Shown one piece after another: positions 2,689 through 5,676 of a stretch of 30,343 nt of DNA (its first letter is position 1; every line of letters begins with the position of its first letter). The translations under genes and the position numbers were made by a program. The notes beneath the pieces are model-generated. The model was not told where the DNA came from, did no database searches, and saw nothing but the letters and a program-made list of their open reading frames with translations. The DNA is taken from positions 1-30,343 of the IMG/VR virus record IMGVR_UViG_3300004774_000478; one strand, given 5' to 3'. The stretch comes from a virus.

Positions 2689-3252
2689 ATGTCCGAAAGT
2701 AGCGACGCAATCAGCTTCAAAGCCCTCCGCGAATACTGCAAAGAACTCGGTCTAACCTCCGTGACTATCGGGATGCCGGTCGATGAGATGATCGCTCAGG
2801 CCCGCAAGACCGAAAACCCACGTGCCTGGCTAGCCGCCCTCAGCAACGCCCCTCCGGAAGACGATGAAGATTCAATCCGTGAGGCCCATGCAGAAGCCGC
2901 GTATACCGACCCACCCGCCGTCGCCGCTTCGATCCCTTCATGCGATCTAGTTCCGCACGAGCCTGACCCTATCCCTCAGTCTATCCCCTTCACACTGATC
3001 GGATCGGACCTCATTGCCGTCGTCCTTCCGATCTCGCGTGAGCAGCCCGTCGGCTACCTGGAGCGGGAAATGCGGCTCGACCTGCGGCTCGGTCCCGCCG
3101 CCTCGATCGCCTTCCGCCGGCTCTGGAAAGCCCTCGACCAAAATAACACCCGGCTCAAGTGCGGAAAGCACGTCGGCTCATCCCGGGCCGACGTCGTCCG
3201 CTGGGTCTTCGAGCAGGTCGCCGACGCAATCGCAACCAAAGGCGGCGTCTAA
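2689..3252 (+). CDS. Hypothetical protein in packaging operon
   Basis: An unrecognised 187-residue protein. The N-terminal 55 residues are helical. An acidic, proline-rich linker follows (about 56-105), then a compact C-terminal domain (about 105-180) with the pattern LEREMRLDLRLGPAASIAFRRLW and a VGSSRADVVRWVFEQV helix. That tail could be a small nucleic-acid or partner-binding helical unit, but no family is identified. It starts 5 nt after the terminase stop, and its own stop overlaps the next start by one base (TAATG at 3250-3254). It is therefore in the same transcriptional and translational unit as the terminase and the ParB-like gene. GC-rich codon use matches its neighbours, which supports it as a real gene. 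Confidence 0.72.
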   Translation: MSESSDAISFKALREYCKELGLTSVTIGMPVDEMIAQARKTENPRAWLAALSNAPPEDDEDSIREAHAEAAYTDPPAVAASIPSCDLVPHEPDPIPQSIPFTLIGSDLIAVVLPISREQPVGYLEREMRLDLRLGPAASIAFRRLWKALDQNNTRLKCGKHVGSSRADVVRWVFEQVADAIATKGGV

Positions 3253-3896
3253 TGGCCAAGAAGTCGCCCATCCACTTAACGACCCACGATCCCCATTCCC
3301 ACATCGCCGAGCAGCTCCGCCCGCTCGCCGTGGCGATGGACCGAGTACATCTCGACCCCAAGAACGCCCGCGAGCACTCCGCCGCCAACCTCACGGCGAT
3401 CGCCGCCAGCCTCCGGGAGTTTGGCCAGGTCAAGCCGATTGTCGCTAACCGGCAGAATAGTCAGATCGAGGCCGGCAACGGCACCTACCTCGCTGCTCAG
3501 ACCCTCGGTTGGTCCACCATCGCCGTCGTCTGGGTCGATCACGATTCTCAGCAGCAACGCGGCTTCTCCCTCGCCGACAACCGAACCGCCGAACTGGCCA
3601 ACTGGAATCAGCAAGTACTCGACGAGCTGCTGGCGGAGGTGCGCGACGAGAATGCGGATCTCTACAGCGAGCTGCTGTTGGCCGATCTCGAACAGCCATC
3701 GGCGGCCCCAACGCCTGAGATCCAGGAGCTTGATGAGCCACTACCCGCGATCGAGGAAACTACCAGACACACTGTCGTCCTTCCCTACGAAGATGCCGAC
3801 GTGCCCAAACTCCTCCGCTTCCTCGGACTGCGTTCGCAAGAGAAGCTGCCTCCGGCCCTGGGCAAGGCATTGATGAACAGAATCCGCATCGCATGA
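3252..3896 (+). CDS. ParB-like (ParB/Srx N-terminal fold) protein
   Basis: A 214-residue protein whose first 120 residues fit the ParB N-terminal/sulfiredoxin fold. Visible blocks are NAREHS at 38-43, GQVKPIV at 58-64, EAGNGTYLAA at 73-82 (the ParB nucleotide-binding block, with GNGT where GEGR or GNHR is usual) and LADNRTAELANW at 107-118. There is no central HTH as in chromosomal ParB, so it is the short phage type. Such domains in phages have been linked by genome context to DNA methylases and base modification. The start at 3252 overlaps the preceding stop, and the stop overlaps the ATG of the Mom-like gene (ATGA at 3893). This operon suggests a role with the Mom-like enzyme rather than in partition. 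An in-frame ATG at 3159 lies inside the previous gene and was not used. Confidence 0.85.
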   Translation: MAKKSPIHLTTHDPHSHIAEQLRPLAVAMDRVHLDPKNAREHSAANLTAIAASLREFGQVKPIVANRQNSQIEAGNGTYLAAQTLGWSTIAVVWVDHDSQQQRGFSLADNRTAELANWNQQVLDELLAEVRDENADLYSELLLADLEQPSAAPTPEIQELDEPLPAIEETTRHTVVLPYEDADVPKLLRFLGLRSQEKLPPALGKALMNRIRIA

Positions 3897-4519
3897 GCGA
3901 ACTCAAGATCAATCTTCGCATTGCCCGAATCAGTAACGTGGATGCCGTCGCGTTCCTGAAGCGACATCATCCACTCGGTGCCGGCGGGGCCTTTAAGTTT
4001 GCCTTCGGAGCATTCTACTCGGGCCGTTGCGAGGGCGTGCTGACATTCGGCTCGCCCTCAACGAATCACGCCACTACGGCTCTCGCACTTCGACAGTGTG
4101 ATGTTCTTGAGCTTCGCAAAATGGTATTAACGGATGTGCCCCCAAAAAACTCGGAGTCAAGAGCCTTGGCGATCGCCGGCCGTCTTGTCCGCCAGGCCTA
4201 TCCACAGATATACTGTCTGCTAACCTATTGCGAGGGTGAGGAGGCCGCTGCCGCGTACCGGGGCAGCGGGTGGCAGGTGTTGAGCCGATCCGAGTATATT
4301 GCTGCGTACAAAATTGGCGGAAAATGGTACACTGCCCGCGATGCCCACCGATCACGAATTGCCGATCAGGCAACGGAAACGAAAACAGCCAAAAAACAAA
4401 AACTAATCCTGATTCTAAATGCGTGCATAGCTCAGAGAGTAGAGCACCTCGTTTCCAGCGAGGCGATGGCGGCGCAATCCCGACCTGCACGCTCCATTTC
4501 ACGCGAAATAATCGGCTAA
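3893..4519 (+). CDS. Mom-like GNAT-fold DNA modification protein
   Basis: The 208-residue ORF carries the signature I associate with phage Mu Mom and its relatives. It has GVLTFGSPS at 48-56, then LELRKMVL at 72-79, DVPPKNSESRALA at 81-93, a long helix to residue 103, and YRGSGWQVL at 122-130. Mom converts adenine to N6-(carbamoylmethyl)adenine, protecting phage DNA from restriction; the carbon donor is not settled as far as I know. The conserved domain ends near residue 150. The last 30 or so residues read through a tRNA-like gene (4421-4496), so this C-terminus may be non-functional extension. It is translationally coupled to the ParB-like gene (ATGA at 3893-3896). Another GNAT acetyltransferase is the main alternative. 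Confidence 0.78.
   Translation: MSELKINLRIARISNVDAVAFLKRHHPLGAGGAFKFAFGAFYSGRCEGVLTFGSPSTNHATTALALRQCDVLELRKMVLTDVPPKNSESRALAIAGRLVRQAYPQIYCLLTYCEGEEAAAAYRGSGWQVLSRSEYIAAYKIGGKWYTARDAHRSRIADQATETKTAKKQKLILILNACIAQRVEHLVSSEAMAAQSRPARSISREIIG
4421..4496 (+). tRNA. tRNA-Gly(UCC)-like gene with aberrant D and T arms
   Basis: A complete cloverleaf of 73 nt plus encoded CCA (4494-4496). The acceptor stem GCGTGCA/TGCACGC (4421-4427/4486-4492) pairs perfectly. The D stem is GCTC/GAGC (4430-4433/4442-4445) and the anticodon stem CCTCG/CGAGG (4447-4451/4459-4463). The loop TTTCCAG puts anticodon TCC at 4454-4456. The bacterial GlyRS identity set is present: U73, G1:C72, C2:G71, G3:C70, C35 and C36. 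Oddities are A instead of G18 in the D loop, a T loop CGCAATC lacking T54 and T55, and a T stem GGCGG/CCGACC that pairs only if A4483 bulges. It may be chargeable yet poor for EF-Tu and the ribosome. Decay of an ordinary phage tRNA is the alternative. Confidence 0.72.
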
Positions 4520-4874: not shown

Positions 4875-5225
4875 ATGACGAACGCAATTGAGAATCTCGA
4901 ATCGGTAGATGCAGCCGATGCAGCTTGCCTTCTTTCGCGCGCGACCCACAACGCAAACATCGGCCGCGATATTGCCTTGATCTGCGATCCGCAAACCGGC
5001 GAATACCGCACACGGAATAAAAACGAGTGCTCGCCCGATGAATACTACCAGAAGCAAGGGCCTGAAAGCCTGTTTGTGCTTGCCGTAAATCGCGGCTATT
5101 CCTGCGAGGATTGCACGGAAGAAAACGAGGATGAATGCGATAATTTGATTGCCGAAGATGTGCTCGTTGATCAAATCGCAGAAGCTATTGCAAATCGGAT
5201 TTCCGCAATCTCCGCCAACGCCTAG
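4875..5225 (+). CDS. Small acidic hypothetical protein with CxxC
   Basis: An unrecognised 116-residue protein. The upstream sequence AGGAG...GAGGAA gives a strong ribosome-binding region just before the ATG, so the start is well supported. The N-terminal half is helical and Ala/Asp-rich. A central stretch, about residues 78-90, has cysteines spaced as CEDC...DEC in an acidic context, which could bind a metal. A helical tail follows (VDQIAEAIANRI). It is the first gene after the candidate promoter at 4790 and is followed by the ASCH gene 82 nt downstream, so both may form a short operon ending at the terminator at 5698-5730. The reduced GC of this gene relative to the packaging genes hints at a different origin. 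Confidence 0.75.
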   Translation: MTNAIENLESVDAADAACLLSRATHNANIGRDIALICDPQTGEYRTRNKNECSPDEYYQKQGPESLFVLAVNRGYSCEDCTEENEDECDNLIAEDVLVDQIAEAIANRISAISANA

Positions 5226-5307
5226 CCCCGATTCCTGCCCGCGCGTCCCGACTAATCACCGGTTTGCCGAAAGGCGGCGCGCGGGCTGCTTTTCGGAAAT
5301 CGCATCC

Positions 5308-5676
5308 ATGAAAACGCTCACCATCCATGCCCCCTGGGCCTGGGCCATCATGCAGGGCTACAAGCGCGTGGAAAACCGCACCTGGAACACCCACTACCGC
5401 GGCCCCTTGGCGATCCATGCCGGAAACTCGATGAAGTCGGACGCCGAGGCCCGCGCCCTATTCGCCAACCTAGGGATCGGGTCCCCCGACGAATTCCCCC
5501 GGGGGGTCATTCTAGGGAGCGTCGATCTGGTGAATGTGCTCCGAACGGACGAGCTGGTCGCCGACCCCTTCGCCGTCGGCCCTTACTGCCTCATTCTCGC
5601 CAACCCCCAATTGCTTGCCGACCCGATCCCCGCCAAAGGTGCCTTGAGTTTCTGGCAGTCTGAAGTGATTCGCTAG
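5308..5676 (+). CDS. ASCH-domain (PUA-superfamily) protein
   Basis: A 122-residue single-domain ASCH protein. The start MKTLTIHAPWAWAIM and the block QGYKRVENRTW (16-26) followed by YRGPLAIHAG (30-39) are classic ASCH features. The domain forms a small beta-barrel that binds RNA, modified nucleotides or modified bases. Some family members, such as YqfB, are N4-acetylcytidine amidohydrolases; the Lys and Glu in the KRVEN block are the sort of residues used there, but the activity cannot be assigned. Its position about 800 bp after the Mom-like gene fits a reader or editor of modified nucleotides. An upstream in-frame ATG at 5149 overlaps the preceding gene and adds no domain sequence, so 5308 is chosen. 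The stop is 21 nt before a strong terminator. Confidence 0.85.
   Translation: MKTLTIHAPWAWAIMQGYKRVENRTWNTHYRGPLAIHAGNSMKSDAEARALFANLGIGSPDEFPRGVILGSVDLVNVLRTDELVADPFAVGPYCLILANPQLLADPIPAKGALSFWQSEVIR

Follow-up and report, generated by a model that had tools for sequence, protein, structure and literature searches.

A family of divergent tRNA-Gly-like RNAs adjoins the phage DNA modification gene mom and may serve as its glycine source

Introduction

The locus described here raises the question of why a phage should keep, within the reading frame of mom, a gene known from phage Mu whose product chemically modifies DNA adenine to shield the phage DNA, a tRNA that appears fit to be charged with glycine while its decoding features are altered. 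A first-pass annotation of this stretch of viral DNA (IMG/VR record IMGVR_UViG_3300004774_000478; all 30,343 bases of it are hereafter the window), made from the letters alone, had noted a tRNA-Gly in which glycyl-tRNA synthetase (GlyRS) identity is intact and elongation features are lost, had likened it to staphylococcal cell-wall tRNAs and had inferred a non-ribosomal role. In bacteria the GlyRS identity set comprises G1-C72, C2-G71, G3-C70, U73, C35 and C36. Aminoacyl-tRNAs are used in protein, cell wall, lipid and small-molecule synthesis, and the non-proteinogenic tRNA-Gly species of staphylococci, which have altered D and T loops, are used outside translation, in pentaglycine bridges, with FemXAB as partner.

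Results

The RNA element and its host gene

The element has the cloverleaf, glycine anticodon and acceptor of a tRNA-Gly, as judged by sequence, Rfam and fold (Table 1). It exceeds the Rfam tRNA cut-off of 29 bits and is the sole Rfam match in the whole record; its predicted structure (minimum free energy -29.8 kcal/mol) is a cloverleaf that includes the T-stem bulge, and none of 200 shuffled sequences was equally stable. ARAGORN found no tRNA in the window. The unusual bases had been correctly read: A18, the T loop CGCAATC and the bulged A4483 are present as described, and the predicted fold agrees with them. The complete bacterial GlyRS identity set is present in the sequence and in the corresponding alignment columns, charging itself being inferred, and the anticodon is preceded by U33 and begins with U34. 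The G18-U55 contact and canonical T loop are absent, the window having A18 and G55. The element also displays the features of the Mom-associated RNAs described below, namely a match to the family model R1 adjoining mom, the bulged A, U73 and CC.

Table 1. Positions of the features of the RNA element and its neighbouring genes in the window
Feature	Position	Strand	Basis
tRNA-Gly(UCC)-like RNA, CCA encoded	4421..4496	+	Rfam 32.9 bits; family model R1 79.6 bits (window in R1 training set)
Acceptor stem, 7 pairs	4421-4427/4486-4492	+	Sequence reading
A18, covarying with G55 (4474) in relatives	4438	+	Covariation counts
G19	4439	+	Sequence reading
Anticodon UCC; C35/C36 are conserved GlyRS identity bases	4454..4456	+	Sequence reading, alignment columns
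T loop CGCAATC; G55 is 4474, C56 is 4475	4473..4479	+	Sequence reading, alignment columns
T-stem bulged A, kept in the divergent family	4483	+	Sequence reading, Mom-anchored elements
Discriminator U73 (4493) and CCA (4494-4496)	4493..4496	+	Sequence reading, alignment columns
mom ORF, GNAT-fold DNA adenine modification enzyme	3893..4519	+	PF25680, phrog_1384, AlphaFold2, PDB 8bv8
ParB-like gene directly upstream of mom	3159..3896	+	phrog_620 105 bits
ASCH-domain protein, a few hundred bases past the element	5149-5676		PF04266 27.4 bits

The ORF that surrounds the element met both tests of membership of the Mom family that were applied: it matches PF25680 above the curated cut-off (80.9 bits against 27.1; phrog_1384, 84.4 bits), and its AlphaFold2 model (pLDDT 93.1) has the same fold as the crystal structure of phage Mu Mom (8bv8; Z 18.7, 2.9 Å over 154 residues, 23% identity), the next GNAT enzymes scoring a Z of about 14. 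No FemXAB or LFTR chain is among the fold-search matches listed, to which we attach no weight either way. The modelled Mom fold stops at about 4420, where the RNA starts, and the open frame continues through the whole tRNA to the stop codon at 4517-4519. The protein is divergent; its best identity is 29%, it forms a long branch of uncertain place in a quick Mom tree, and some residues common in the family are missing. When it was used as a query, no relatives were found in viral contigs; the tblastn matches were to Mom of the Mu type and to one gene in Psychrobacter phage Y8A. On the evidence of profile and modelled fold the ORF is Mom; that the DNA of this phage carries the glycinamide modification is inferred. 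The nearest terminase relative (75% identity) has terminase, the next gene, portal and protease in the same order, and the ParB-like gene, mom and the element are all absent from the 18 kb of it in view.

A family of elements beside mom

A scan of viral contigs with the T-arm pattern GGCGGYGCRAYYCCGACC returned at least 120 stretches, or 122 with Y8A added. Among the 122 matches listed, 107 have six or seven acceptor pairs; a same-strand mom lies no more than 1.5 kb away in 95 of the 107, and in none of the 15 with fewer pairs (Fisher p 2.8e-12). It should be emphasized that such p-values overstate independence, since the sequences are related by descent. Of the 12 well-paired matches without mom, nine were removed by hand because their acceptor pairing appeared to be due to chance and they lacked a discriminator and CCA-like end, which left 98 convincing elements among the matches listed. 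In 95 of these 98 a same-strand mom lies within 1.5 kb, two (L064 and L144) are at contig ends, the former preceded by a Mom-like SKPYP tail, and for one (L126:792-860) the 1,554 bases in view contain no mom, only frames resembling a cytosine methyltransferase and a terminase alongside. ARAGORN calls only three of the 98 (L056, L065 and L121). Two contigs carry two tandem Mom paralogues followed by one element (L101:449-1686 and L061:461-1725).

The family was also approached from mom. Single Mom proteins (from phiEf11, Y8A, Mu and Aeromonas phage pAEv1818) served as queries because an alignment of 40 Mom sequences was too diverse to scan with, and the retrieved loci were searched with R1, which was built from the pattern-derived first set. 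With the phiEf11 protein an element was found at 53 of 80 kept loci, starting 0-2 nt past the Mom domain in all 53, with no R1 match at phiEf11's own locus; with that of Y8A, at 72 of 80, mostly 39-109 nt downstream and in 13 of the 72 on the other strand. The Mu query yielded an element at 0 of 63 loci, and the Mu-like pAEv1818 query at eight of 70, all upstream of mom, the other 62 having none by R1; ARAGORN identifies seven of these eight as tRNA-Gly(UCC). Genome contigs have an element at seven of 28 mom loci, and at Chloroflexi/Dehalococcoidia loci (L329, L331 and L332) it lies upstream of the Mom domain. When R1 was applied to 50 control loci without Mom (26 terminase relatives and 24 pattern false positives; 474 kb), nothing scored above 30.5 bits, compared with 32.7-85.1 bits in the phiEf11 set.

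Among named phages, R1 matches adjoin mom in Salinibacter B2_17, Arthrobacter Shade, Microbacterium Appa, where the match is an ordinary tRNA-Gly on the strand opposite mom, and Psychrobacter Y8A; no match was found beside mom at the other 13 named phage loci examined. Y8A has two tandem elements of 68 and 69 nt directly after mom. Both share the window element's acceptor end, U73-CCA, UCC loop, T stem and bulged A; the D arm is absent. Neither is reported by ARAGORN or Rfam, and the Y8A paper reports an absence of tRNA genes. Over 17 whole phage records R1 recovered the known copies in Y8A and B2_17 and a weak match (29.5 bits) in Halogranum tailed virus 1 (HGTV-1), far from its mom; the negatives of this search are weak, because it missed the Shade and Appa matches. 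HGTV-1 (L338, record position ~50.4 kb) has two tRNA-Gly genes (GCC and UCC), with mom some 54 kb away, and trans supply from these distant genes is possible.

The comparison of loci shows a large, mostly unannotated family of predicted RNAs that adjoins mom in many different phages. Of 117 same-strand downstream elements, 70 are spanned completely by the open mom frame, in which case the mom mRNA would lose its stop codon when the tRNA matures; co-transcription with mom is not universal, since some elements are on the opposite strand. In a quick tree of 93 Mom representatives, 50 have a divergent element, 12 a canonical-like one and 31 none, and as the tree needs 14 changes of presence the pair must have been gained or lost repeatedly. 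A canonical tRNA-Gly also adjoins mom, upstream in a Mu-like clade and on the opposite strand in some relatives, which points to repeated recruitment.

Features kept and features relaxed

Wherever an isotype is called, the tRNAs beside mom are tRNA-Gly: of the 39 that ARAGORN reports no more than 400 nt from mom at the Mom-anchored loci, 30 are tRNA-Gly, nine have an undetermined anticodon and none is assigned to another isotype, the six non-Gly tRNAs lying farther off. An alignment of relatives (61 rows) has 95.5% of pair cells paired and a covariation score of 0.515, against 0.125 when shuffled and at most 0.113 when slid. G1, C2, G3, G71 and C72 are each found in 61 of 61 rows, position 70 is C in 58 and U in three, U73 is present in 60, and C35 and C36 in 58 each, only three relatives lacking C at each position. 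The columns thus uphold the reading that the identity set is intact. Position 33, in contrast, is U in only 28 rows (A 17, G 10, C 6) and position 34 is U 30, A 21, C 7 and G 3, and so U33 and a normal wobble base are not family-wide features, although the window itself has both.

A dereplicated set of 142 elements, from which 18 without a four-pair anticodon stem in the automatic parse were dropped for counting, tells the same story: among 117 divergent elements a GCG start is found in 115, U73 in 116, U33 in 38 and CC in 92, the last figure reflecting the choice of some wrong loops by the parse. The D arm is reduced or absent in the 51 of 142 elements that are no longer than 72 nt. Across the family, as far as comparison of sequences can show, features read by GlyRS are kept and those needed for decoding are relaxed, and for this reason the non-ribosomal role inferred from the window alone is now well supported, expression, charging and EF-Tu binding remaining inferences.

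The first-pass annotation had also held that free variation of the odd positions among relatives would refute its reading. They do not vary freely: 55 of the 61 aligned relatives have A in column 18, positions 18 and 55 covary and the bulged A is kept as its stem changes. Where the D arm can be parsed (74 elements), A18 occurs with G55 in 42 of 42, while G18 is accompanied by a base other than G at 55 in 22 of 27 (G18 with U55 is tallied in 22 of the 74). Since the T-arm pattern forces the T loop and bulged A columns of the 61-row alignment, these were judged on Mom-anchored sets, although R1 still leans towards both features there. In Mom-anchored elements alone A18 occurs with G55 in 10 of 10, and G18 with another base in 20 of 23. 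The T stems of this set covary (GGAGG/CCTACC, GACGG/CCGATC, AGCGG/CCGACT and others); the bulged letter is A in all 54 strictly parsed bulged stems, eight stems have no bulge, and 20 of 82 could not be strictly parsed.

Given the 18-55 covariation, A18 and the T loop of the window are best read as a single alternative tertiary contact and not as two lesions. The departures that the first-pass annotation pointed to are real but are not random damage, for A18, G55 and the bulged A are common to most relatives; likewise the canonical contact is indeed absent, but instead of 'elongation features lost' it is better to say that a different conserved contact between D loop and T loop has taken their place, or that they have been dispensed with.

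Discussion

We consider it probable that the element acts as a dedicated partner of Mom, a largely non-decoding tRNA-Gly that provides it with glycine. The linkage of Mom to tRNA-Gly, the Gly-only isotype, the kept GlyRS identity and the relaxed decoding features are shown by comparison, while expression, charging, glycyl transfer and rearrangement are inferred. According to this model the element would be transcribed with mom and then released by tRNA-processing enzymes, and it would be charged with glycine by host GlyRS, for which the acceptor end, U73 and C35/C36 are the main requirements. Mom, a GNAT-fold acyltransferase, would then move the glycyl group from Gly-tRNA onto adenine of the phage DNA; if the acyl group went first to N6 and the purine then shifted, N to N, onto the glycine amine, the known alpha-N-(purin-6-yl)glycinamide would result. 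Phages without their own copy, including those of the Mu type, would use host tRNA-Gly; having a tRNA for this purpose alone may ease the demand on the translation pool or give better binding to Mom.

In the literature the Mu product, a modified base described in 1983, goes by the name alpha-N-(9-beta-D-2'-deoxyribofuranosylpurin-6-yl)glycinamide, and one review suggests that the group is donated by an acyl-CoA, 'such as glycyl coA'. A glycyl adduct (+57 Da) has the same composition as carbamoylmethyl, and the N6-glycyl and glycinamide isomers are both +57 Da. The GNAT toxin AtaT2 recognizes Gly-tRNA-Gly and acetylates its glycyl group with acetyl-CoA (PMC7470980, seen in part), as a GNAT acting on Gly-tRNA-Gly resembling what is proposed for Mom, although AtaT2 does not act on DNA. 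Thus the Gly-only linkage, the GlyRS identity, the +57 Da product and recognition of the AtaT2 type make transfer from Gly-tRNA the simplest reading, and since the linked tRNA-Gly has held GlyRS identity and lost decoding features, the donor can be named in testable form. In general terms, Mom is likely to be a tRNA-dependent DNA modification enzyme with glycyl-tRNA as donor, supplied in many phages by a tRNA of their own that has been pared to the needs of GlyRS and Mom. Weighing against the donor model is the lack of elements at Mu-type loci (0 of 63), at 62 of 70 pAEv1818-type loci and in 31 of 93 Mom representatives. Also on this side are the element without mom in view (L126), the elements on the strand opposite mom, the few that lack C at 35 or 36, and the divergence of the window's Mom. 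It should be emphasized, moreover, that plain acyl transfer would give the N6-glycyl isomer; the rearrangement is a proposal only, and the model as a whole is without charging, binding or product data.

It could be argued that the element instead regulates mom, as a tRNA-like structure in or near its mRNA at which RNase P/Z cleavage or GlyRS binding would keep expression of a toxic gene low. Mu mom expression is indeed toxic and tightly controlled, according to the sources available in part, and where the mom frame spans the whole element, as in 70 of the 117 same-strand downstream cases, processing would remove its stop. Regulation, however, has no need of U73, C35 and C36 being kept while positions 33 and 34 drift, and is hard to reconcile with the 13 of 72 elements in one set that lie on the other strand or with those upstream of mom; we therefore regard it as unlikely, while not dismissing it. 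Alternatively, Mom could act on the charged tRNA as its substrate or use it as a specificity RNA, or the tRNA could be a decoy for defence systems that attack tRNAs. Which way the reaction runs is not settled by linkage alone, and GNAT enzymes that modify Gly-tRNA exist, as the partly available literature records; the known Mom product, however, already bears a glycine-derived group (again from partial sources), which transfer of glycine from the tRNA explains at once, and a general decoy would not need mom as neighbour, and so this possibility seems distinctly improbable.

An ordinary phage tRNA-Gly that aids translation of Gly codons would account for the Rfam match, for UCC and U33 in the window and for the canonical tRNA-Gly of some relatives. 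It would not account for U33 in only 28 of 61 rows, A34 in 21, the short elements with reduced or absent D arms, or the lack of any other isotype within 400 nt of mom, and we give it very little credence. A decaying tRNA fossil or attachment-site remnant might explain why ARAGORN misses the element and why positions are odd, but scarcely the strong covariation and conservation in 61 distinct relatives, the 18-55 covariation or the occurrence next to mom across very different phages, and this explanation was rejected. The glycine-donor model is retained as the preferred reading.

A related locus has been noticed before. A 2011 study (PMC3146451, seen in part) described a 76-bp tRNA-Gly-like locus with anticodon 'DCC' embedded in mom in 16 Dehalococcoides ssrA islands (modules) and one fosmid; it was labelled pseudo-tRNA by pipelines, and in the part available no separate function is ascribed to the RNA. 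That locus resembles the present family in being tRNA-Gly-like, mom-embedded and accompanied by a ParB gene, but was reported for those islands and the fosmid, whereas here a wide phage family emerges together with an analysis of GlyRS identity and decoding. The staphylococcal comparison made in the first-pass annotation holds for the altered D and T loops of a glycine tRNA and otherwise remains an analogy, as charging of the element is inferred, its partner is a DNA-modification GNAT encoded by mom and not FemXAB, and its family often lacks the D arm and has the A18:G55 contact. Phage Mu Mom shares its fold with the window ORF, but R1 detects no element in Mu, neither next to mom nor in the rest of the genome; the whole-record negatives of this search are weak.

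If the model is correct, the donor of the Mu mom reaction, at present only proposed in the sources partly available, would be settled, and an aminoacyl-tRNA would be used to modify DNA. It is this expenditure of an aminoacyl-tRNA on DNA that would be new; the RNA alone would be a non-decoding tRNA variant. No literature naming Gly-tRNA as the Mom donor was found, although coverage was partial and such a paper may exist. The analysis also brings to light a tRNA family that is common yet mostly overlooked by ordinary annotation, as the three ARAGORN calls among the 98 matches listed and the Y8A paper illustrate.

With respect to the genes nearby, PUA-like domains such as the ASCH domain encoded beyond the element can bind RNA or modified bases. 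In the window (3159-3896), Y8A, phiEf11, Appa and Shade (L002, L151, L152 and L153), mom is preceded, either immediately or with one gene between, by a ParB-like gene, which may be a partner of the modification system. On one contig (L077:140-215) the 3' end of a ParB-like frame itself scores 30.5 bits with R1 and contains both the T-arm pattern and ACGCTCCA; this match is either due to chance or an element remnant.
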